Source: Zasmidium citrigriseum | Taxonomy: Eukaryota > Ascomycota > Dothideomycetes > Mycosphaerellales > Mycosphaerellaceae | NCBI GenBank assembly: GCA_002786025.1 | Contig: NHNW01000019.1 | Span: 62,001-126,000, forward strand | Direction: 5' to 3' | DNA: 64,000 nucleotides | In this document: one piece after another, positions 1 through 44,749 of the stretch | Numbering within the stretch: position 1 is the stretch's first letter | How the letters are laid out: each line of letters starts with the position of its first letter | Notes under the pieces: generated by a model | Database searches by the model: none | Told to the model about the DNA's origin: nothing | The model's input: only the letters and a program-made list of their open reading frames with translations | Position numbers and translations under genes: made by a program

Positions 1-2117
1 ATATAGGTAAGATTAAGACGCCCGTAACGTCGATATCGTCGCTTTAGAGGACTAAAGAGTATATAAAGGGGGGGGGTAGTATTACGATCTACTACCTAGC
101 CGCTACTATCTAGCTAGTAGCCCGTAATATCGATACCTAAGGTACCTATCGATACCCTTATCGATAGGAAGCTCCCTTATAAGGAAGCGCTTCTTAGAAA
201 CTCTTCGTAGATTGTCTATAAACTTATTAACTTCTCGATTCACGTCTATTTTATCCGTAACAATATTATTACCGACTAAGTAGAATCTTATCGATTCTAG
301 GTAGATAGTAATAGCGTTAACGTTAAGGTTAGGTACTACCCGCTTAGTTTTCTATTATAAAGCTAGACGGCTAGGTTTAACGATACCTAGTAAGACGGCG
401 TAGATAATACCCTAGTAGTACGGCGACTAGATTTAACGATATCTAGTAAGATAGCGTAGATAACGCCCTAGTAGGCGGCCTCGTTTTACGTCGTATAGCT
501 CGACGAGATAGGCCTAATTACTTAGTTTTACGTCGTTAGCTAGACTAATAGGCCGCTATAAGTACTTAGTTATTAGTAAGATAGATAGTAGCTAGCCTAC
601 CGCTTAGTTTTACGTCGTTAAGCTAGACGGATCTCTTCGTATACCTATTAGTTACTACTACGCTAGCTTACGTACGATACGCTATTATATACTTATAGTA
701 GATCGTAGAGGTATAGAGGTAGATAAAGAAGAAAGGAAGAAGTTAGAGTAAGGAAGAGAAGTTATAGTCGCGCGTAGGTAGTAGCGGCGATATAATATTA
801 GCGCTAGCGAGGTAAGGTAAGGCATTTAATAGACAATAATAGTAAATAGCGATAATAGCCGGAGTTTATAAAGTTTAGACTTAGGCGTTTAAGGCGGGTA
901 AGAGGAGGTATTAGTACTAAAGCTAGTACTAGAAGAGTAAGGACTTAAAGAAGGAGAGGTAATACTAGAGGTAGCGTTAACGATAGGGACTCTAAGTCTA
1001 GTAGACTAGAAGATTAGACTAGAAGATTAGACTAGAAAGTAGGGTAATTAACTTCTTTTCTATCTAGCTTTATACTTCGAGCGAGTAAACTAGTAGTAAG
1101 TATACTTACTAATACCCTTCTTACTATCGTACTATAGCGTAGCGGCCGTAGTATACTCCTTATACTAAACTCCTAGTCGGCTATAGTAGTAATAGTATAG
1201 CCTAGCTCTTATAATAGATAAGCTAGCGATCTCCTTAATTCTCCTAACGTAGGAATATAGGCGCTTCTATAGCTCCTTAAGAGCGTTAAACTCGGCTTAA
1301 GAAAGGGCCTTATAGTACTAGCCTTAAGCTATTAGCTAGTAGTACTAGGTACGAGTACTATAAGGCTAGCTACTAATATTATAAGCTACTAGAGCTAGAG
1401 CTAGAACTAGAGCTAGAGCCGGAGGTAGTACTAGCTAAGGTATAGACGCCTTATCTTCTTCGCTACTCTCTAGTACCTCGTAGATATTAGTAGTAGACGT
1501 TAGAGTAGAGGTAGTAGATTACTAGCGGTAAGTACGGTAGGCGCGTAGCTAAGCGAGAGTACTAGGTCGATATATTAGTACTAAGGTAGCGGCGGCGGCG
1601 GGTTCTTACGATAGCTCTCTATAATATATTAGTCTTTATAATTAAAGGGTCTCTCGAAGATAGTACCTAGATATAGTACTTAGACTAGTACGAACTCGAG
1701 TAAATAGCCTATTAGGCTACTACTACTACTACTACTCTTCTTACGGCGATAGTCTATACGACGGTTAGCGACTATAGAGTTTATCTATAACCTATAGACT
1801 TACTCGTTAATAGCCTCCTTAGTAACGGCGAGTATATTGTCCGCCTATATATCTACTTCTTCGGCGGTAGATATAATAATAATATTAGTACTATAGCTAG
1901 CGCGAGTAAGCGATTTCTTAATAACGGCGGCGACGGTAATAACTACGAGGACGGTAATAAGAGTAATAATTATATTATTACTAGAGAGGGAAAGGAAGAG
2001 ATAGAATATAAAATCGAAGCTTATTTAAATACTAGCCTACTATTATCGACGCTCTTATTATCCGCCTTATATTATACTACTACTAGCTTTACTCTAAGTT
2101 TTTAGTCTTAATCTAAG

Positions 2118-2275
2118 TTTAGACGACGAAGTAGGCTAGGCTTAAGCCTAATAGTTAAAGTAAGCTAGGCCGAGGAGGTAAGGCCTAGTAGACTAGGTTA
2201 AAGCTAGGCTAAAGCCTAGATAGGGCCTACCTTAGCCTACTTTAGCCTAGTAAGAATACTAAAACAATACGAGAG
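2118..2275. repeat. GGCCTAGG-rich repeat, possible left inverted copy
   Basis: This stretch is built from AGGCTAGG, GGCCTAG and AGCCTAC words. It resembles the reverse complement of 10,975-11,100: both contain a TTTTTAGTCTTAAT-like start, then GTAGGCTAGG, CTAGGCCGA, and end near GGGCCTTAG or GGGCCTACC. If real, the pair would bracket about 8.7 kb that includes the hAT and both histone relics. RIP lowers sequence complexity and makes chance similarity likely, so this is only a candidate terminal inverted repeat. Confidence 0.35.
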
Positions 2276-3439
2276 ACTGCTTTATATAAGTAGTTTACTA
2301 CGTATATATAAACGCGAGATATAGATACTCTATAGGTTAAAAAACGAGCTAGCTACGTACGCCGACTACGAAGATATAACTATCGTATACCTAATAACGT
2401 AATCGTAAAGCGACGGGAGTAGCCGAAAGCTTAGCTTTAAAGCCGAGCTCTCGTCGTAATTTAATCCTTCCTTTAATACTACCGATTTTTACGCTAGAGC
2501 GACGAAAATCGACTACGCGATATCGAGAAAATATCGCGAGATATCTACTAACTACGCCTACTAGCTACGTAAGCGAATATAACGAAGTATAATCTATCCC
2601 TATCGCTACTAGCCAACGAACCGCCGAAAATAACGCCTTTATCGAGAGGAAAGCGTAGAAAGGCGGACGAGAACCTCTCGCTTAATAAGAATACTCGGCG
2701 CGACCGTATACGTAAGTAGAAGATAAGTAAGGATAGGGTAGAGGAGAATAGAGAGCGTAAGAGAAAGAATACGGCCTTTAGAAGATAGATAAAGAAGAAC
2801 GTAGAACTAGCTAAACTAAAGGGCTTAAGTAAGTAGTAGGAGAAGGTAAAACGGGATACCCTACGGGCTTAGTAGGAACTTAAGTAGTAAGTTAACCGTA
2901 CTAGCTAGTAGACGTAGCTAGTAGTACTAACTCTCGTATAGGGTAATATCGATAGAGATAGCTAGCGACGAGAATACCGTATATACGGTAGAGGAAGCCA
3001 ACGATATAGCCGCTAATAATACTATATCTAGTATACTCGTTCCTAGTAATACGATTCCTAGTACCTATCGATAGGAGGCGTAGACTATAGTAGAGATCGA
3101 GGATAAGGAGTAGATTTACGACGAGAATAGCGAGCGTATAAGGCAGATAGGTATATATCTTTACTCGCCTAAGCTACCTAGTACTAATACCGAGGACGAC
3201 GTATAGCGCGAGAGATCCTAGATCCGTAAGGCGATAGTAAATAAGGAGCTCTAGTAGCGGTCGGTCTAGAAATACTAGTATAAGGCTATTTATAAGACGA
3301 TAAAGAAGCTAGACCGCCTTAAGCGTATCGGCCGTATAGGACACTTCCTTAAGACTAACGCTAAGCTCTTCTTTAGTAAGGAGCTAACGGTATATTACTA
3401 AGCCGTAGCCGGTATATATAGCTAGTATAAGAGTACTTT

Positions 3440-4337
3440 ACTAACGATAGATAGGATAAGTTAGTAGGTAGTAGTACCTTTAAGCTATACTACCTCTTTA
3501 ACGAAACGAAGCGCGTAGTTATTAGAAACTATATAACCTAGGATAAGACGATTATATCTTTATAGGCTTAGATAGATCTACGCGGATACGACCTAGTTAT
3601 ATACGGATTTCTAGACGACCCGCTAATTTAAACGGCTACCGCGGCTAAGAAGATATATAATATATTCGTTTAAGATACTAAAGACCTTTATCTAGAGGTA
3701 GGCGTCTTTACCGAGATTGTAATTTAAGAGCGTATACCGGCCGTCTTTAGAATTAAGCCTATATTTATAGAGCTAGTTAGCCTCGAAGACCTTACTCTCC
3801 TCGATAACGATAAGACGCGGTAGATCTTACGGGGTCTTTAAATAGCTAATACGCGAATTAAGAGTAGAGAGCCCCTATACTTTACGGAGGCTAATATTAA
3901 CTTCGAGGAGGCTAGTCCTAACTTTAATAAGGCTAGTCTTAACTTTAATAAGGCTAGCTTCGACTTTAATAAGGCTAGCTTTAACTTTAATAAGGCTAGT
4001 TTTAATTTTAATAAGGCTAGTCTTAATAAGTCCGCTAGCGTAGCTAGTAGCCGTAGCTAGCTTAATATAGCTAATAAGCTAGTTAACTAGGCGATAGTAG
4101 AGGGTATAGGAGAGAAGGAGTTTAAGCTTACTATACTACTAACGGATCTAAATAGGAAGAGACTAGGTCGAGTTATACTAGACGTAGAGCCCGTATAAGG
4201 TAACGGCGACGTTTTAGACGATAACTAGATATAGGACGATACCCTAGCGGACTTTAGAGACGATAAAATAGATCTCGACTAGGGTTACTATAGTAACTAG
4301 TATATTAATATACTTAAGGAGGCTTTAGGCTCTTAAT
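3440..4337 (+). pseudogene. Unassigned transposon ORF relic with 7-residue repeats
   Basis: One frame runs for about 300 codons without an indel, interrupted only by TAA and TAG. It encodes a mixed charged protein, then a run of near-identical seven-residue units (3889-4035), then an acidic tail. Upstream, 3,180-3,480 reads in a different frame as a basic segment containing KKLDRLKRIGR, so an intron or frameshift may separate the two parts. I do not recognise a family. The absence of indels suggests inactivation by RIP rather than long neutral decay. It lies upstream of, and in the same orientation as, the hAT relic. It could be an accessory ORF of that element or a separate insertion. Confidence 0.5.
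3889..4035 (+). repeat. 21-bp tandem repeat, about seven units, coding
   Basis: Units begin GGCTAG and end TTTAATAA, exactly 21 bp apart at 3889, 3910, 3931, 3952, 3973, 3994 and 4015; the first and last units are degenerate. In the relic frame each unit encodes a heptapeptide such as ASFNFNK or ASLNFNK. The differences between units are mostly not RIP-type, so the repeat is older than the RIP event. Confidence 0.85.
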
Positions 4338-4649
4338 ATAACTCTCTTCTCTTTATCTATATCTCTATCTCCTACTCTACGCTATTATGCCTCGCCTTCC
4401 TAGTATATTACTAAATAGCTTATAGGTCCCCCCGCGATCTCTACGATTAATAATACGAGAAAGCGAACGATAAAATAGTAGAGTACTTCGATCTAGGGTA
4501 TTATAGTCTAATAAGCGCTTTAGAGAATATATCGTATCGCTAATTAGTCGTACCTAAGAGACGGAACTAACCTCTATATCGCTAGTAACTAGTAATCCTC
4601 TCCTAAGGCGGCGACTTTTCTAAACAATAAATAGCCTAGGAGCCTCTCG

Positions 4650-7450
4650 TCGAACTCGTTCTTCTCCTACCTAGATATAAAGCTTACCTCTATCTACTAG
4701 TACTTAGAATTAGATCGATACCTTATAGTTCCGTAAGATTAAGGACATATATATTTACGAGGACAAATATAAAAAAGCGCTAACCGAATACTACTATTCG
4801 TAGTAGGATAAGGTATTATAATATAGCCTATATAAGAAGCTCGTTAAAAAACGAGGATAGTTACTATTCGAGTTTAGTAGTAGAAGGTCGAGCTCGTACG
4901 TATAGTAATTCTACTATAAGGGCGTTTCTAAGGAGGGTAAACCCTATATTCTTTATTAAATCTACGGGGTACGATTAGTATATCTAGGCCTTAATATAGG
5001 GACGACGACTATAGATTAATATTTATCTTTAAGAGGCTATTTAAGAGTAGTCGTAGTATAAGGACGTAACGATACTAAAGCTACGAAGGGCCGAAGGCTA
5101 AAGAGCTTATAGTACGTCTTATACGAATACCTAGATCTACTAGCTACGTATACTAGCGACGCGTACGATACTAACGAAGAATAGATATAGAAAAAGCGTT
5201 CGGGATTTAGGGGAGAATCGCTAAGTCTAAACGACTTTATAACACTATAGACTAATATAATTATTACTAATAGGTTACTATTAGATTTCTTCGAGCGAGA
5301 TTTAGTATAATAAACGTACCTTTATTTTTATAAGGAACTATAGTTCCGCTCCTCGATAACTTAACGAGTATGGATTCGAGAACGCGAGAAGTAGGTAATA
5401 TAGTAACTATAAGGACAAATTAATAAGTATAACGTAGTCGCTTTCGCTATTAATACGTAGTCTACTAGGTTAATACGGGCGTTATTCCTTAGTATTAAGG
5501 GCTATTAGATTAATCCTACTTAGATATACTATAAGGAGCTACTCGATTTCCCTACTATTTATAGCTAATATACTAGAGAGAATATAGCGAAACTANTAAT
5601 AATAGGACCCTATATTACGCCGTATACGTACTATAAAGATATAAAGCGCTAAACGTTCTAACGAAATATAGTCTAAAGGTAGTTTAGAAGCTATCTCGTT
5701 CTACTAACCTTACCTAGCTTACGAGACTAGAAATATAGGTCGAGGCCGTAAGTATAGAGAACGAAATAGAGTCTAACGAGTAGGTTTACGATCTAAACGC
5801 GGATAGTCCGAAGATATATTACTTTCTATAATTTACGTATATTATATAGTTAGCGATTCGTACTCTATTCTCGGAGCTAAAGCTAGAGCTAGAGAATAAC
5901 GACCTAGAGAAGACGATTAATAATACTACCTCTCGTAAGGAACTTAAAAAGATTAAAGCTAGGAATAACGTAGATAATATTCCCCTAGTCCTTTTTAAAG
6001 TAAGTTTTAGACTTAGCCGTAGCCGGTACGCGTAGCTAGTAATAGACATCTCTAATTAATAATCTATAGATTCGACAAATAGCGATCTACGTTAATTAGA
6101 ACTTACCGCGGATAGAGGCTTTCGAACGTATTTAGGTCGAAGTAAATAAGAAACCTATTATAACTAAAGCCGCGATAGCCTAGAACGAAAGATAGATACG
6201 GGATATATTTCGGAAGCTTCGACTTATCTAAGATATTAAGATACGATTCGACTTAATATACTATATACTTATTCGACTATATCTTCTCTAAGACTCTATT
6301 AATAAATACTATAAGGAGTATAAGCTCGACTAGCTAGAGCTCTCTAATACTAAGTAGAATTAAGTTAAATACCTTATTAAGTTAGCGAGGCCTTTCGCTA
6401 AAGCGATAGCGCTTATAAGTCGGTTATATAGGCTAATACTATACCTTATCTTTAGGTTATATAACTACATTTTTAATAGTATAGATACTACTCGATAGCG
6501 ACTTAAGAAGAAACGGAAGCTATAGAAAAAGAGAATACTCGTAGCTCTAGAGGTAGCGTAGGAAAAGCTTAATAAATACTACTCGTAGACGTTTAAGTTA
6601 TTCGGCGATCTATATAGTATTACTATCCTACTCTATCTATCGTAGAAGCGCGAGTTATAGTAGCTACCTAAATAGGCTTTAGAACTAGAGTAGGAAGAAT
6701 ATTATTAGAACTATCTTAAGAAGCTCTTTCGAAAGTATTCTAAAGCTAAAAGCGGCTCGTAGTAGAACTCGTAAGGTAGATAACGTAAGAGATAGAAGCT
6801 TACGAAGTAGTTACGACTCTTTCGAGGAAATTCGAGTTAGACGAGCTCTTCTTAACACGTAGACGACGACCCTATAGAAGAGTTCTTTCGTTATAAACGA
6901 AAAGGTACGTTAACTATAGCTAGTACCTATCGCTAGTAGCCGCCGCTAGTTACTTATAGTAGTCTAATGTATCTAGACTTTTCGAACCTCTATAATATAG
7001 TTAGTAACGATATCCTTACTTAGTAGGTATATATTAAGTAATAGTTCCCTACGATTGCGAAGATTACTAGAGACGTACTCTATATACCTAGAGTACTAGG
7101 AATCGGATACGAGAGGGCCTTTAGTATTACTCGCTACTAAGCTCGTTATAATCGGTTATACTATCTAGATATCTTTCGCGCTATTATAATGTATCGCTAC
7201 CGTCTTCGTTAAGAATTAAGGTAGATAGAATAGTCTAATAAGGATTCGTTTAAGTAGTAGATAGAGGACGACGTACTAGAGTATAAGATCGCTACTAAGG
7301 AGGATCTCTACTATATTAGTAACGAAGGGGAAAGCGGCGTACTAAAGAGAAGAAAAACGCGTACCTAAAGTAGAAAGAAGCCTACTATATTAGATACTAC
7401 TCTTAAGGCGTAGTCGGTAGGCGTAGCTAGCGTTTACGTACTTCTTAGCG
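4650..7450 (+). pseudogene. hAT-family transposase relic (BED finger plus dimerisation domain)
   Basis: Two hallmarks survive. At about 4,888-5,045 the frame reads as a BED-type zinc finger in which the paired cysteines are now tyrosine codons (TGC or TGT to TAC or TAT) and the histidine is TAT, all RIP-type changes; it is followed by the NIGTTTID segment seen in fungal hAT proteins. At about 7,060-7,215 the frame reads as the hAT C-terminal dimerisation region, with ERAFSI followed by ARYNRL and FRAIIMYR. Between them, around 6,220-6,470, lies a stretch like the hAT region before the dimerisation domain. Stops are TAA or TAG only. It is a dead copy. Whether it mobilised the neighbouring histone relics is unknown. 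Confidence 0.78.
5596..5596. other. Ambiguous base (N)
   Basis: A single N is present inside the hAT relic, the only ambiguous base I noticed. It may be a low-confidence assembly position in repeated DNA. Confidence 0.95.
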
Positions 7451-7740
7451 TCTTAGCGGCAATTTAAAAGCTTCTCTTTTCCCCGCTCTTACTATCTTCC
7501 TTTCTTTAACCTCTAAAATATACCCGCTATCTACTCTAATTAATTCCTAAGTAATTAAGCCCTTCTCGATATACCTAGTCTAATAGATAAGGATAAATAT
7601 AACGACGAACTCGATAATAACGATAAGGTTAATAACAATATACTATCCTCCCTACTACTACGAAAACGTATAGAAGTACTACCCGCTAGTTAACCCTTAG
7701 CTTCGGATATAGATAGACCTATATCGCGGAAGACTACGGT

Positions 7741-8321
7741 ATAAAGTACCTATCGTTAGCTAAGTACCTAATCTAATAACGGTTTTAGAACCCTAAAGCT
7801 AGTCTATCTCGACTATAAACGTCCTTAAAAGCCCCTTATAAAACGGTACTAGTAAAGGCGCCGCGTAAAACTACGAAAGCACCTTAATAAAAGAAGAGAG
7901 CTAAGATAGCGATTAGAAAGGTATAAAAAAGCGTAGCCTAAACTAGGCGTAAGAAAGTTATCGCGAAGAAAACGGATTATAATATACCTTATAAACGACG
8001 AAAATTTAATACTAGTCGAGCTACTCTACGTAAGATCTAGAAATATTAAGGCTCTACGAAATCCGGGTATTCCCTCCTTATATAAAAGGTACCCTTCTAA
8101 CGACTAGTTCGAGAGATTTCTAGCGAGTAGGCCGTAGGTAGGGAAATTATAAGATAGTAGGCGTCCGCGATTAAGGTATTATAAGAAGCCGCCGAAGCGT
8201 TCCTTATCTTAGAATTCGAGTACTTTAACCTACTAGCTATCTACGCGAAACGCGTTACCCTTATATCGAAGGATATAGCTCTATATAAAAAGCTATAGTA
8301 GCGCTAGACTAGCTAAGATTA
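7741..8321 (+). pseudogene. RIP-inactivated divergent histone H3 (CenH3-like)
   Basis: One uninterrupted frame with only TAA/TAG stops. After a basic tail containing VKAPRK (7,852 on), 8,017-8,304 matches the H3 histone fold: ATLRKI, then Y-stop, ST, LLI, PF-stop-RLVREI, L-stop-EAAEAF, NL, AI-Y-AKRVT and KDI. Stops fall on conserved H3 glutamines (8047, 8098, 8158, 8182), the invariant His of AIHAKRVT is now TAC (8242), and the Met of TIM is ATA (8263); all are CA-to-TA or TG-to-TA changes. Other differences from H3 are not RIP-type, so the parent was already a divergent variant. Loop 1 is about three residues longer than in H3 and the R-stop-stop codons fit R-W-Q, both typical of centromeric H3. 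The long N-terminal tail also fits CenH3. The start is uncertain (ATA at 7741 could be a former ATG). Confidence 0.8.
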
Positions 8322-9162
8322 GTAAGAACTATACTAATAAATATCTATTCTTCCTTAAGTCTTTCCGTACATTTTCCCGCGTTTTTAAGCGGTATATAAA
8401 GGGTTTTTACCCGTAGTAAAGTATAAGGTAAAGTATAATCCCTATAGCTTACTATATATTTTTTCCCTAGCTTCTACTAGCTACGTAGGCTAGCTATAGC
8501 TCCTTCCCTATATTCTTCGGTACACCTACTATTATATATACCTATAACGTTATACGAAACGCTAGTATAAAATACTAGTCGTAATCTTAAACCCTCCGAT
8601 ACTATACTACCTATCCCTACCGCCGCCTTAGCCCGTTTTAAGCGCTCTAACCGCCTACGACGCCTAGAAAAATTTATATATACTTTACCTTACCTTATTA
8701 TAGCGCGTATAAAGAGACCTACTACGTAAGCTAAGGCGTTAGTAGCGAAAGCGCCTCGTAAGTAGCTCTCTACTAAGGTACTACTAGGTATCGCTCGTAC
8801 GCGTAATATTAAGATACTAGGCGTAAATAGTTAGGAAGGCCGTACTTTAACGCCTTAGTAGTAACTTCGTAAGCCCGTAGCTAGTACTCGTAGCTAGTAG
8901 GTCGCTAACGCTTTAATAGAGAGATACTTTCGAGAGACGCGACGTCTCTAGGAAATTCCGCCTAACTAGGAGATCCTCTTCGCGCTATTCTCGCGCCTTA
9001 TACGGGAAATAGTATAGAAAGAGTACGTAGACTAGGCTAAGAGAGTTAGGCGTTATATCGAAGATAAGGGCAAATATATTTATTTCGAGCTACGCTAGAA
9101 GAAAGATATAATCTAAGCCCTCCGATATACTATAGTATACGTACTATATAATATATTTAAAG

Positions 9163-9214
9163 GTATATTCTACGTAGCTAGTAAGCGTAGCTAGCGTATA
9201 CTAATAATTTTTAG
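9163..9214 (+). other. Preserved intron in the second H3-like relic
   Basis: The intron is 52 bp, begins GTATAT, has TACTAAT ten bases before its TAG end, and is phase 1. It joins TTTAAAG to CTACTAAC and so restores the H3 sequence between the FE and DTNL positions. This shows the relic was a spliced nuclear gene rather than a processed retrocopy. Confidence 0.7.
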
Positions 9215-9509
9215 CTACTAACCTTATTACGCTTAACGGAAAGTATATTACGCTTATATAGAAGGACCTTTATACCCTTAGTTAGATCCTTAAGATCTAT
9301 AATAACTTCGAGCTATACGGTATAATAGACGCTCCCTACCTAAGAGCTATTATTAGTATTAGTCTTAAGAAGTAAATTACCTACCTAAATAATAAGAGAT
9401 AAGGTAAAGTTAACTCTCGTATTATTACGAACGATAATAACGAAGCGGCGTTCTAGGCCTAAGAGGAGTAATATAAGGGTAATAGAGGCTAGAAGCGCCT
9501 CGTCTAGGA

Positions 9510-9672
9510 TAGCTAGCGTACGCTACGTAAGAGAACTCGAGTTACCTTACCTAAGCCCGTTAGTAGCTAGCGTACGCTACGTAAGAGAGGACCTCGAGTT
9601 ACCTTACCTAAGCCTATTAGTAGCTAGTATAATCTACGTAAGAGAGCTCGAGTTACCTTACCTAAGCCCGTC
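9510..9672 (+). repeat. Three tandem 54-57 bp coding repeats
   Basis: Copies start at 9510, 9564 and 9621, each TAGCTAG followed by TACGTAAGAGA and CGAGTTACCTTACCTAAGCC. In the histone-relic frame each encodes a basic unit of the form RKR-x-RVTLPKP. The third copy runs into a GAA tract encoding seven Glu. The units differ by a 3-bp indel that keeps the frame, so they diverged as coding sequence. Confidence 0.85.
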
Positions 9673-9898
9673 GAAGAAGAAGAAGAAGAAGAATAAGACG
9701 GTAGCGATAAAGAGGCTCTTTAGCGTCGTATCGATAAAACGGATAGAGAGCTAAAACGATTATCGTCGCGCCTCGAGAGAATAGAGGCTAATAATAAAGA
9801 AGGCTTAAGTAATAAGAGTACTAGCTATACGGACCGTATTATATAATATAAGTTACGTAGCTAGTATACGTAGCTAGTATTTACTAACGATATCTAGT

Positions 9899-10797
9899 AA
9901 AACGTAAACGAGAGAAGAAGATAGCTAGGAAGGCTAAGGTAAAGAAGAAGCTAGCCGACTAGAAGAAAGCGGAGAAGGCTACTAAGAAGTAGACCGACAA
10001 TAACCGTAAATACTACTAAATCCTCTAACGAGTCTAGGGCTAGGTCGATATTAAGGACTTTAAGATTACTACGGATAAGGCTAAGTATATTAACGGCCTA
10101 CTAAGGGACTTTTAGAACTACGCTAAGACGAAGGCTAGTCGTAAGCCTCTACTAGATTAGATAGGCGATATAGTCGATCCTAACGTCTATCCGACTATTA
10201 AAGCCTAGCCTAGTAAGAAGGCGACCCCTAAGAAGACTCCGCTATAACTAACGACTAGAGTAGTATAGGCGCCTAACTCTAGCGTAGCTAGCGACTATAG
10301 CCGGTAGGAAGACGAAGAACGAAAGTAAGAATAGGTAATAAATAAGGCGTAGCTAATCGCCGAATATATCTAGAACTAGAAGGATATTAAGGTTATTAAG
10401 ATTCGAAAGGATAAGGCGGACGTAGCTAACGAGCTACTTTCGTAGTAGTAGATAGAGTTACGCGCCTAGCGCCCTAAACCTCCTATAGGTTATCCTTAGG
10501 AAGAGTAGGCTAAAGAGTAGCCTACTATCGGTAAATAAGATAGTATTAATATCTATTAGCTACCCGAAGAGCCCGTAGCTAGTAGTAGTAGCTAGTAGCT
10601 AACCGAGGCTATTATAACTAATACTTAGGTATCGCTAACCGAGTAGCTAGTAGAGGCTAGTACGAAAGAGCCTTAGGATATACTAACTAAGTAGCTAGTA
10701 GAGGCGAAGGAGACTTAGGACCTACTAGCCTACTAGTAGTCTAAGGAATAGTAGACTAAGAATAGTACTAGAGAGATTGCCTCCTAAAGTAGAGGCT
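9899..10797 (+). pseudogene. Unassigned basic ORF relic, possibly an exon of the preceding gene
   Basis: One frame with only TAA/TAG stops opens with a strongly basic segment (RKREKKIARKAKVKKKLAD), continues through KDFKITTDKAKYINGLLRDF, and ends with acidic repeats of the form TE-stop-LVEA and TK-stop-LVEAKE, closing at a TAA after REIAS. A TACTAAC branch-like site and CTAG lie just upstream (9,882-9,898), so this may be a further exon of the H3-like gene at 8,700. The upstream donor is unclear, so I keep them apart. No domain recognised. Confidence 0.45.
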
Positions 10798-10974
10798 CGA
10801 GAGATAATTTGTTTTTTAAGCGATATTAAGAGCGATAATACTTCTACTCCCCCCCCCTCCTTAAAAGTTATATAGCTTACCTCTTTACTATACTACTTCC
10901 CCTATATAATGTTATATAGCCGATTAATACTTTGTCTATATAAAGATTAAATATATCTTTTCTCTATCTATAGC

Positions 10975-11100
10975 CTACTTTAGCCTAGTAGGCCTACTAA
11001 GGCCCGCTCGATTTTTCCTAGGCCTAAAAGCCTAACTTTAATAGGCCTAGTTCTAGGCCGTCGGCCTAGCCTAACCTAACCTAGCCTACCTCGGTATCTA
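10975..11100. repeat. GGCCTAGG-rich repeat, possible right inverted copy
   Basis: Its reverse complement resembles 2,118-2,275 in word order (GTAGGCTAGG, TAGGCTAGGCCGA, AGGCCTA, GGGCCTTAG). It lies just downstream of a run of nine C (10,849-10,857) and a TTAAAAG stretch. The same caution about low-complexity similarity applies. Confidence 0.35.
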
Positions 11101-11539
11101 TCTAAGTTTTTAGTCTAGATCTAAGTTTAATTAAGACTAAAAACCCTATTAGTCTAAGCTATAGATATTTAGCTTAATTATTACGACTAAAAACGTTTAG
11201 ATATTACTACCTAGCTTAATACCGCTTCTAGTACTACTCTAAACGCCCGCTCTAATACTACTATATTCGCTACTAAGGTCTATTATCGCTAGATCGATAT
11301 ACTCGTATCCGTCTATATCGATATACGGACCGACGACGGGACTATATAAGGTAGCTATATTATTATCGACGATACTAGTAGCTATACCTCTACGATCTAT
11401 ACTAGAGACTCGCTTTATAGCGTTACCGTTATTTAGGTCTTCCTTAATTATAGCGTTATTACTACTCTACGTAATACCTCTAGCTAGCTATATCTTCTTC
11501 GTATTAAGCTAGTCGATAGCGCCTATAATCTAGGCTACT

Positions 11540-40629: not shown

Positions 40630-41269
40630 TGTGCGCTTGCGTGGGTGCTATAGCGGATCGGTTCGATCATGAAGTGACAAACTGCTTGGCACCACCCGCC
40701 GGGTTCTAGAGCCATTTTTTGAAACCAAGATGAGAAGGAGCACTTCTGAGCTTGACCCCTGTCCTTCGATGATCCTGGTGAAGAGCGGGGCTCCATTTAA
40801 GCTCTTTCTCATGAACTCTAGCGTAGCATGCTTGGTGAACGACGCGACGAACCTGCAGACAGATTCGAAGAATTGGGAAGCTCCCTATGATACGTCGACG
40901 TCATGTTGCATGTTGCTCGAGTTGTGCTCGAGAAATTCGTCAGACCGCTCTCAACCAGGCGCCCTCGTGTAAATCAATCTGGAGTTTCCCGGATATTACT
41001 CAGTCGTCAGGCCAGACATGCGGCTTCAGTCATCCGGTTGAGCAGCTCGCGAAGTTTAGGCGAGAAGATTCATGGATACCATCCCAGCTCGGCAACTGAC
41101 GGGTTTATAGTCCTTCGGCCTGGGAGCCGGTGGTATGGCTGGCTTGTCCATTCCAATTGGCGGTATCGACACATTAAACCAGTTTTATCGCCAGCCAAGG
41201 GTGGTTCCGAGAAGGGTTTGGTGTCAATATAGTGCAGCGATATTACTTGTCTGTGACCTTGTTAATTAT
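40630..41269. other. Intergenic flank of the second RIP island
   Basis: Normal composition with CA and TG present. Short frames only. It is the upstream region of copy B, so the promoter of that gene must lie here, close to silenced DNA. Confidence 0.5.
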
Positions 41270-41679
41270 GTTATTGTCTAACTACTAAGGTAGTAGAAAC
41301 TATACCCCTTTAAGAAGAAGGTTAAGCCTTCTTAAGCCTTATTAAGGGCGTGTTGTTTACGCGTTAACTCTAGCGCGTAATAGCTACTATCTAGTCTTCT
41401 TAGTTTCTTAATCGATATCTATTATAAGGTAGTAGTTATTAATACTACTACTCGCTACTATTACAGAGAAAGAGGAACTCGAGTTATAAGATATCTAGCG
41501 AGGTATAGTACTACCCTTAATTAATAATAATAGCGAGTCCTTCGCCTTCTAGTATCTATACTTTAACTAGTCCTTAGACGACTTTCTAGATAATAACATA
41601 ATTAAGTAGACTTAATTCTTAAAGGAGTAGATTAGAAAGCTTACTCTAATACTATTTAGTAATAATACTATATAATATC

Positions 41680-42660
41680 TAAGCGATAAGGAGGGTCGTT
41701 ACTACTACTAAGTAGAGCTAGAGTATATACTATTTACGCTTACTCGTAGGCTAGTATATAGCTATTAATATTATAATATAATAGAGTATAGCTAGGCGTA
41801 GGGTTAGATATCCTATATAATTAATAGAGCCGCTAAGGATCTCTATAAGTACTTTAGGCCTATAATCTACTAGTAGCTAGCTCTTAATAATCTTAAGACG
41901 CTCTAAAGGTACTACTATAAGACAAGACAAGCTAGCTATAGTAATAGACTACTATAGGGATTTATTAATAGTATCTTTTATAAGTTTACTTAGCCTAAAG
42001 ACGCTCGTCGCTTAGAGGTAGTAAGCTACCTATTCTAGCTACTACGCTAGTAATAGCGAGAAGATCTAGTATATTACTACCCTAGACGGCCTTATTATCT
42101 ATACCTTAGATCTAGAGCTTAGTCTAGCTAGTAATAGTATAATCTTCTAAGAATCTAGTATAGAAGCTAGGCTAAGAGTAATATTTCGCCCCCTTAGGTA
42201 TAAGTTATATCTTTATAGCGATAGTATATACTCTTCTTACTTTAGAGTTATCGAAGTACCTTATAATAACGCTACTAGACACTAGTATCTAACTAACGCG
42301 GAAATGCGAGCTAACTTCTTCTACTTATAAGCCTAGATTAGCGTCGAGATAGCGTTTAGTAGCTACTAGAAGTACTAGACCTTTAACTATAGTAGTAAGA
42401 CTCTACAAAGTAAATATTAGCCTATCTTATTATACTTCTTCGTATCTATATTACTTATAAACTACCTTAACTATATATAGACGGCCGAAAGGTTAGATAA
42501 TCTAATAGGAAGTATATTTAGCTACTACCTACCCCCTCTAGAGCGTTATCTAGGCTAGTATTACTAAGACTAATCGTATAGAAGTCGTTAGTACTAGAAA
42601 TAAAAGCGGTTAATATAGTAATTACGACGGGAAAATGTATTTATAGCTATAGCGATAGGG
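41680..42660 (+). pseudogene. Unassigned transposon ORF relic
   Basis: One plus-strand frame runs about 320 codons with TAA/TAG stops only and no indel. It is rich in Arg/Tyr/Leu and includes RRYYYKTRQASYSNRLL and FYKFT-stop-PKDARRLEVVSYLF. I do not recognise the family. Stops presumably replace Gln and Trp. Confidence 0.45.
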
Positions 42661-42879
42661 TAGTAGTTATTAATAATAGTAAAGTTTATAGATAAAGGAA
42701 GGCGTAAGAAAGCTAGCGTTTATTACTTAGCGTACCGAATATTAAAAGTTAGGAAGTAAGGATATTAAATTATATCTATTAATCGCAAGTTAGTCTTAAA
42801 TTTAAAGAATTAGTATAGTATATACGTCTATACGCGACTATATAAAGATTAAGCTATATTTACCCTTCCTAGATACTAA

Positions 42880-44027
42880 GAAAGACACTAAATACGGAGC
42901 TACTCGTAACGTTAGACTTTAGCTCCTTCGGCTAGCTCTTATTCCTTCTAATTCTTTATAATTACCTTTATTATTAACTACTATATTAAGTAACGGTCCT
43001 TACGCTCTTTACGATAGTTCTTAGCGTCCTTACGACGCTTCTTAGCCTCTAGCTCTATCTACTTCTTAAAGATAGCTATTATAGACTTAAAGCGGCCGTC
43101 CGCCTTACTTATAATATAATCTATAGCGAGTTACTAGCGTTTAGCCGACCTCCTTTAGCTATAAGCTAGCTACTCGTCTTCTAATACTAGATTATTACTA
43201 GTAAGGTCGATTTCCTTAATACCCTCTTCTTTCTTATTACGTATAATACTAAACTTCTTCTTTAGACCTACCGACTTAAACTCTACCTTACGCCGAGCCT
43301 ACGCCTACTTCTCTTTAAAGTCTAGCTCCTTAGCTTTCTTCTAGGCTTCCTTCTTATTAAGTAGGTTACTTAGACGTTAGATAGTAAGCTAATAGTTACT
43401 TATATTATAACTAGTACCCTATAGGCTATTCTTAACGCCCTCTTTAAACTTAGGTACCTACCCCTTAATCTACTACTCTAGAGCTACCTAGCCGCCTATT
43501 ACGGACCTCTTTAAGCTCTTCTTTAGAGCTAACGTCGTCTACGCTATAATCTTACTCTCTATTATAGTAAACTAATAATTAATAGACTCCTTCTCGCTTA
43601 TTAGATAGTTATAATACCCTAGTATTATATTAATAGCCTATAGTCGCTACTTCTCTAGCTATTTAGTATACGCCTTAGCCTACTCCTTAACGTTACTAGT
43701 CCTTATAGTATAGATTACTTTCTTAACTATAATATCTTCTATAAATATAATATCCTTCTTCGCTTTTAGCTTAGGCTAGCTAGCTAGAGTAGACGTACTA
43801 GTATTTATAGTACGAATCGTCTCCGCTATTATAGGCTAGGCCTAACGTAGAGGAGTAGTAGTAGTAGGCGTAGTAACGCTATTACCCTTAACTATACGTA
43901 GTAGTAACGACTAGACTAGCCTAAGCTACTTATAATAGGTTACTAGCGCTAGATCTTTAACTACTAGTAATAGCGACGAGCTTAGAGCGTTAATATTAAT
44001 CTAGTCGCCGCCGCTAGAGTAAGACAT
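42880..44027 (-). pseudogene. Unassigned basic transposon ORF relic keeping its ATG
   Basis: The minus-strand frame opens with a preserved ATG at 44027 (MSYSSGGD), then a Thr-rich stretch, and becomes Lys/Arg-rich and coiled-coil-like toward the end (IELEAKKRRKDAKNYRKERK). Interruptions are TAA/TAG. The composition recalls DNA- or RNA-binding accessory proteins of transposons, but no domain is recognised. The ATG survives as a rare TG inside the island. Confidence 0.45.
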
Positions 44028-44749
44028 ATTTACTAGTAAGTTGTTATATACGTACTATATACTATAGATAACTAATAGTAGTAGTAGAGCGAGTAGTACT
44101 ACTATCGCCTATAGTAGCGTATCGTTAAGGGGGGTTAGGTAGCGGTAGCTTACTCTACGGCGATTAATTATAAACCTATTAGGCCTACTAGGTATATTTA
44201 GCTAGTATCTAAGGTCGTCTATATCGTTATTATCTTACTAACGTATATATAGATAAGAAAGAAGAAGAAGAAGAAGCTATAGTAGTATTAATAGTAAGAC
44301 GCGCTCGCGTTATATTAAGTTCTCGATCTATAGGCTATATCGTTATCTTAACCTTAAAGAAGGTATACGCTTATACCCGTATAGTATACGGAGGCTAGCG
44401 TATACTATTACTATATTAAGTAAGCGGTAAGCGGTAATTAACGGACTCTTAAGACGAAGGTTAGTAGGCTCTTAACCCTAATTAACACTAATATTACTAT
44501 ATTAGACCTATACGGAAGCTATAAAACTAACCTATTAAAGGTCTCTAACGCTTAACGGATAAATACCGACGATACGGTTAAGGACTACCTCCCCTTTACA
44601 CTTAGGTAACACCCTGCCCCGGCTATGCTATCGGTGGAAATAGTCGACTGCCATGTGCATCATAGTATCCTTAGGATGCTAGATGCAAGGGTGAAAGCAA
44701 AGCTGAGTAAAGAAGCGACCTGGCTTCAACTAGTTCCATGAGGAACTTG

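Follow-up and report, generated by a model that had tools for sequence, protein, structure and literature searches.

A RIP-destroyed H3-type histone gene inside a hAT transposon of Zasmidium citrigriseum

The histone gene and the element that carries it

The DNA analysed here (the window) is a stretch of 64,000 nucleotides from Zasmidium citrigriseum, which corresponds to C60:62001-126000 of a 44.4-Mb, 148-contig assembly. Its bases from 1 to about 14.7 kb are AT-rich and contain a degraded hAT DNA transposon, which encodes a transposase remnant and, downstream on the same strand, a histone gene interrupted by stop codons (Table 1). A second AT-rich block is found at 41000-44500, flanked by DNA of host-like GC content. 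The preliminary description had placed the histone gene in a transposon island; the AT-rich surroundings agree with this, but rather than a lone gene within an island it lies in, and belongs to, one particular hAT element.

Table 1. Features of the histone-bearing element (positions in the window)
Feature	Position	Strand	Remarks
hAT DNA transposon (family A), RIP-degraded	2120-11100	+	8,981 bp; homology limits, TIRs and target site duplication coincide
Target site duplication, left (tctaagtt)	2112-2119		identical 8 bp on both flanks
Target site duplication, right (tctaagtt)	11101-11108		identical 8 bp on both flanks
Left TIR, imperfect	2120-2143	+	starts TAGACGACGAAGTAGGCTAGG; aligns without gaps to the reverse-complemented right end
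Right TIR	11077-11100	-	reverse complement starts TAGATACCGAGGTAGGCTAGG; paired with the left end
hAT transposase remnant	4950-7380	+	limits approximate; transferred from the C120 segment that is conserved with family E
Place of the hAT C-terminal dimerisation region (PF05699)	7039-7158	+	detected in the C120 copy, mapped by collinearity
H3-like histone pseudogene	7741-8319	+	193 codons, 20 stops; no indels relative to the C120 copy
Codon aligned with H3 Lys9 (CTA)	7813-7815	+	anchored on the KAPRK motif (H3 14-18)
Histone fold (PF00125)	7942-8295	+	Pfam profile match
Arg-stop-stop adjoining the longer loop 1	8152-8160	+	AGA TAG TAG in the window, AGA TGG TAG in C120

Translation of 7741-8321 in frame 1, with stop codons represented as X, recovered the Pfam Histone profile (PF00125) with 63.5 bits (E 2.9e-17) over residues 68-185. 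This match, together with an alignment with H3 and CenH3 proteins, defines a core histone fold with an H3-type alpha-N. A six-frame Pfam scan of the whole element (2120-11100, E up to 10) likewise returned the histone only, with no hAT domain. For the comparison of the window copy we used as reference the least mutated copy seen, which resides on contig C120. The histone genes of the two copies have the same 579 bp without indels and are distinguished by 55 differences, none of them a transversion and 54 of them C>T or G>A when read from C120 to the window. The 20 stop codons of the window gene correspond in C120 to 8 stops, 6 Gln, 5 Arg and 1 Trp codons. Arg codons were therefore also hit by CG-to-TA change, and the earlier reading of the stops as Gln or Trp is incomplete. 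The first codon (7741) and the Met codon of the VTLM motif are both ATG in C120 and ATA in the window, and the invariant His of the AIHAKRVT motif is kept in another copy (L007), its replacement by Tyr being already present in C120. These comparisons bear out the preliminary description in regard to a single H3-family frame free of indels, the death of the gene by RIP, and a parent already divergent from canonical H3. We accordingly confirm that 7741-8319 is an H3-family histone gene killed by RIP inside a hAT transposon. A chance frame was considered and set aside in view of the ten full-length copies described below, and a fusion of transposase and histone was dropped as a candidate, given the in-frame TGA that separates the two in C120. 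An AlphaFold model of the read-through C120 histone had a pTM of 0.23 and a mean pLDDT of 62, and fold matches based on it were not used.

Homology of the element to its other copies stops at 2119/2120 and at 11100, the imperfect TIRs of about 24 bp start with TAG, and each of the three copies for which both flanks were fetched has its own 8-bp target site duplication (tctaagtt in the window, gagaggac and cttctact in the others). Overall, the right end of the family A element was seen in 7 copies and the left end in 4. The window element is additionally surrounded by a 29-bp direct repeat (2093-2121 and 11101-11129), and the insertion seems to lie within a local repeat; a target duplication of 29 bp was considered and dropped, as 8 bp is the kind shared by the other copies. 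The region C60:66943-68002 (4943-6002 of the window) is a direct match to the transposase query, and the window transposase is without about 64 bp near 5593 that are present in all six other copies spanning the place. In the C120 copy we detected the hAT dimerisation domain PF05699 (25.3 bits, cut-off 21.4) ahead of the histone and in the same orientation. The equivalent score in family E is 19.5 bits, below the cut-off of 21.4, and in the scanned stretch of family C the histone was the only domain seen, with no dimerisation domain. A Pfam scan of the other strand of the C120 copy gave two families, both below their cut-offs, and neither a PDB sequence search with a transposase stretch nor a scan with NCBIfam, a library made for prokaryotes, gave a match. 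The element ends, the 8-bp duplications and the dimerisation domain in C120 thus place the histone inside a hAT transposon.

The element shows a TA/AT ratio of 2.14 and a (CA+TG)/(AC+GT) ratio of 0.03, as against 0.52 and 1.27 in the 46-60 kb part of the window, and retains CA and TG at 32 places in its 8,981 bp. Its GC content is 0.380, as compared to 0.468 in the C120 copy. Across element-wide aligned parts transitions outnumber transversions in all seven comparisons with other copies (898 to 55 against C120, and 317 to 73 against C144, which has the smallest excess). By its directional change and CA/TG depletion the element is a repeat mutated by RIP.

Six families linking transposase and histone

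A search of the genome with the PF00125 profile gave at least 55 matches, host genes included. The RIP-marked H3-like genes among them sort by sequence into six families, which we label A to F for the purposes of this study (copy counts throughout are lower bounds), B being represented by one locus. With the C120 histone as query we recovered ten full-length family A histones, as well as one fragment located at the end of a contig, in keeping with the earlier prediction of a multicopy gene. That prediction had been accompanied by the proposal to look in the same genome for copies untouched by RIP; copies were indeed found, but all ten full-length ones carry in-frame stops, 8 to 25 in each.

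A family A transposase fragment of 373 aa retrieved 44 matches, which were merged into 39 loci (a lower bound). A histone gene lies within 8 kb at 28 of these 39 related transposase loci, and conversely 28 of the 42 listed histone loci and fragments are paired with a transposase. The spacing is nearly constant within each family: the two genes are on the same strand with gaps of 1736-1739 bp in A, 1972-1987 in F and 1785 in E, and are divergent with gaps of 4237-4433 in C, 4039-4571 in D and 3297 at the one B locus. The A transposase is at the same distance from the histone in nine family A copies. Among the 11 transposase loci with no histone, seven leave the contig on the histone side (C111, C145, C95, C97, C86, C148 and C68) and two are partial (C122 and C13:119083); at the other two (C76:203138 and C87:367237) there is no visible reason for its absence. 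That related hAT elements also carry a histone suggests that it is a working part of these elements and not a chance passenger.

The transposase tree of ten rows, built without RIP masking in a run that warned of long branches and of the odd composition of one row, groups A/E/F (85/90), C/D (94/97) and B with C87 (100/100). A histone tree with all RIP-ambiguous residues masked and a host variant (L002) left out recovers A/E/F (bootstrap/SH-aLRT 93/92) and C/D (98/95), and weakly joins B to A/E/F (73/76). A purine/pyrimidine histone tree, which is blind to transitions, gives A/E/F (SH-aLRT/bootstrap 90/86) and C/D (93.5/95). The amino-acid trees comprise 16 and the purine/pyrimidine tree 13 of the 34 aligned transposon histones, and the loop-1 and alpha-N insert columns were excluded from the trees. 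As far as these alignments go, transposase and histone fall into matching groups, {A,E,F} and {C,D}. The elements of A and E have similar right ends, equal gene order and near-equal spacing, and the left end of C is similar to the right end of D when the latter is reverse-complemented, one end each being in view for C, D and E. Apart from the transposase and the histone, which are the main stretches common to A and E in the visible part of E (from C93:9000 on), the two families share one weak match of 105 residues upstream.

Several additional observations were made in the course of this survey. The family B locus (L025, C1:304500-314499) contains three histone-like matches (at 1176-1547, 4875-5399 and 5934-6371 of L025) together with a direct repeat (67%, about 410 bp), and brings to mind the P. 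fijiensis elements described with two histones. A second reading frame is common to families C and D (L030 6455-6769 and L031 582-896), roughly 0.9-1.4 kb upstream of the histone, with about 40% over 111 aa, which recalls the "central ORF" of the Pyrenophora element. On C134 two open, strongly divergent H3-like frames occur 8 kb apart (L048, 48567-48788, plus strand; L047, 56546-56764, minus strand), with no stops within the histone match, and these are possibly fast-evolving H3 variants. A further divergent H3 variant with a GKAPRKQL tail (L002, C69:454889-455353, minus strand) falls outside the six transposon families and has one TAG upstream of its open fold.

Signs of selection on the histone and its possible origin

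RIP makes transitions only; hence transversions between the families record older change. The numbers of histone-fold transversions at codon positions 1, 2 and 3 are 17, 9 and 28 between A and E (p 0.004), 12, 11 and 25 between A and F (p 0.006), 14, 7 and 26 between E and F (p 0.002), and 16, 9 and 30 between C and D (p 0.001). For 14 pairs, which are non-independent and in some cases near-repeats, the uncorrected p value is 0.01 or less in 9 and above that level in 3 (A-C 0.054, A-D 0.28 and D-D 0.56, the last with two transversions only); within family A the fold has no transversions in either of the two pairs tested. The signal disappears in the shifted histone frames (p 0.30 and 0.48) and is weak over 152 codons with the tail included (p 0.047). 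The A-E transposases show a like third-position bias (p 0.023 to 4e-5 in four parts). Expressed as changes per site, the ratio of positions 1-2 to position 3 is 0.46 for A-E, 0.46 for A-F and 0.42 for C-D, with 0.36 for host H3 versus host CenH3. Against host H3, A (0.49), B (0.23) and E (0.49) keep the bias, whereas D (0.67) and C (0.89), with intervals that reach 1, have little or none. We take the codon-position bias as a sign that the histone protein was under selection during the divergence of the families within a group, though a part of the bias could predate capture.

Based on these observations we think it probable that the histone was a resident, selected gene of the hAT transposon at 2120-11100, made together with the transposase and needed for the success of the element, and that RIP came later. 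A point against this explanation is that one old capture, with part of the constraint dating from before the capture, would also give the linkage and some of the bias.

As to the kind of histone, the long tail, the longer loop 1 and the R-W reading noted earlier were all confirmed. In the alignment loop 1 is longer in A, E and F, and the R-F of H3 corresponds there to R-W or R-stop; B, C and D have a loop 1 of H3 length with R-F. C120 itself reads Arg-Trp-stop, where fungal CenH3 rows read Arg-Trp-Gln and H3 rows Arg-Phe-Gln. At the level of the alignment these CenH3-like traits are real, and they may, but need not, reflect descent from CenH3. The amino-acid trees, which include host H3 and CenH3, set the transposon histones apart from both (bootstrap/SH-aLRT 99/99 unmasked, 72/91 RIP-masked), and a kinship of A/E/F with CenH3 is not rejected (AU p 0.143 and 0.209). 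The RIP-immune purine/pyrimidine tree weakly joins A/E/F with the host CenH3 (SH-aLRT 79, bootstrap 67). From this difference between the trees the origin would be either one old acquisition or two. The host has separate H3 (C71) and CenH3 (C54) genes, readable across presumed introns. The host CenH3 groups with those of Ramularia and Septoria (95/89, unmasked amino-acid tree), in line with a host from the Mycosphaerellaceae, the family of P. fijiensis. Protein searches with the read-through alignments were dominated, among the best 120 of 2365 and of 3766 matches, by ordinary H3 and CenH3, with neither a close intact relative nor a Pyrenophora H3L named there.

This raises the possibility of two or more independent captures, in which A/E/F took a CenH3-type and C/D an H3-type histone and each kept it. 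Such a history is compatible with the histone being a selected gene of the element, and we regard it as a serious contender, though one we lean against. The division in loop length and in the residue after the loop Arg follows the same lines as gene order, which is same-strand in A/E/F and divergent in B/C/D, and the RIP-immune tree points the same way. The top PDB sequence for C120 is the S. pombe Cnp1 (88.9 bits), though it is in effect tied with Cse4 (86.8) and H3.1/H3.2 (8kcb_F, 86.6). Against it, the amino-acid trees unite the transposon histones included in them, and B, which has no longer loop, weakly joins A/E/F in the masked tree. A single origin of all six histones is no more than one possibility, as the transversion distance between A/E/F and C/D is about the same as that of either to host H3.

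A passive transduplication, in which a host H3 transcript was accidentally acquired and amplified by a hAT element without the histone ever being of use to it, appears unlikely. It is the published view for Pseudocercospora fijiensis, where PMC6710886 explains the H3-like copies as a captured housekeeping transcript. In its favour, that paper reports intron-less exon-exon junctions, extra copies affected by RIP and truncation of many copies. The stops in all ten full-length family A copies and the slight third-position bias of C and D relative to host H3 would fit it as well. It is opposed by the excess of third-position transversions between families of a group, by the linkage of transposase and histone in six families and by their matching groupings. 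In Table 1 of PMC6710886 itself (deRIP column), the share of sites with transversions is 24% for non-degenerate and 41% for four-fold sites, a divergence which RIP cannot make and which argues against passive capture. Finally, a host histone variant gene swallowed by a transposon island and then destroyed by RIP, which the AT-rich surroundings might have suggested, is already refuted by the element boundaries, since other insertions of this element carry the gene at the equivalent position, at a constant distance from the transposase, with the ends and target duplications enumerated above.

Proposed role and relation to known elements

Mobile elements are thought to be wrapped in host histones, on which their silencing is written, and H3K9 methylation is the mark that silences fungal transposons. 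Where H3 has Lys9, family A has CTA, E has ATA and F has TAG, codons that neither encode lysine nor arise from a lysine codon through RIP. The position is non-lysine in all 14 A/E/F copies in which the KAPRK anchor is visible, a fifteenth being cut short. Lysines are kept in C120 at the places of H3 14, 18, 23 and 27. The tail of family D reads ARKT, and the loss of Lys9 is thus not general. A non-lysine residue at this place suggests a nucleosome that might have escaped H3K9 silencing.

For the histone as a selected gene of the element, the following mechanism can be envisaged. The histone, made alongside the transposase and contributing to the success of the element, would have taken the place of host H3 in the nucleosomes of the element or its surroundings; nucleosomes without Lys9, with a changed tail and loop 1, would have taken no H3K9 methylation, and the unsilenced element would have stayed readable and mobile, until RIP mutated every copy found. 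We offer this nucleosome replacement tentatively, as the most likely of the functions that might be proposed. In a broader form, equally speculative and more doubtful than the selected status of the gene, there would be a long-lived hAT lineage with its own H3-type histone as a tool, possibly CenH3-derived in A/E/F, whose Lys9-less nucleosome avoids heterochromatin or guides insertion. If true, a transposon would have countered histone-based silencing directly by making a histone of its own, and what has been published as an accidental gene capture would become the story of a retained tool. Because the published Pyrenophora H3L is apparently intact, the idea can be put to an experimental test.

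In its histone, the element resembles CenH3 (CENP-A, Cse4, Cnp1) in the longer loop 1, the Trp after the loop Arg and an Ala-Phe-Leu-Val in alpha-2 of C120. It differs from CenH3 in the H3-like KAPRK tail and in being multicopy inside a transposon of a host that has its own CenH3 gene, and from canonical H3 in the conserved tail, where the place of Lys9 is not a lysine. Histone-bearing hATs have been published from Pyrenophora in 2013 (PMC3538342) and from Pseudocercospora, Cercospora and Sphaerulina in 2019 (PMC6710886); judged by titles and abstract openings, these two are the only papers on such elements among those listed, with no later work and no CenH3 link. PMC6710886 reports hundreds of RIP-dead H3-like copies in P. 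fijiensis hATs and more in five kin, and states that the hATs of the two publications are not similar to each other. As in those published elements, an H3-like gene lies between the TIRs of a hAT, and the window element is a further member of this known kind. With those of Pseudocercospora fijiensis, Cercospora zeae-maydis, Sphaerulina and their kin, going by their published descriptions (PMC6710886), it shares the 8-bp target site duplication, short TIRs and CA-to-TA RIP; they are 9.5-9.9 kb long with extra copies reported dead, as the copies are here. They have one or two histones with DUF659 as the only recognised domain, whereas family A has one histone and PF05699 was seen; the present elements also differ in forming six families and in the indications that their histone was under selection, as judged from those descriptions. 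With the Pyrenophora tritici-repentis element (PMC3538342) it has in common the dimerisation domain and the H3-like gene. According to that paper, the Pyrenophora H3L, which has tail insertions and matches neither H3 nor CenH3, occurs in 26 nearly identical, mostly intact copies with ESTs, in an element of 5.6 kb with a central ORF, while the present element is about 9 kb long and RIP-dead. To these known systems the Zasmidium elements add the linkage across six families, trees that match, a test based on transversions and an interpretation in which the histone belongs to the transposon.
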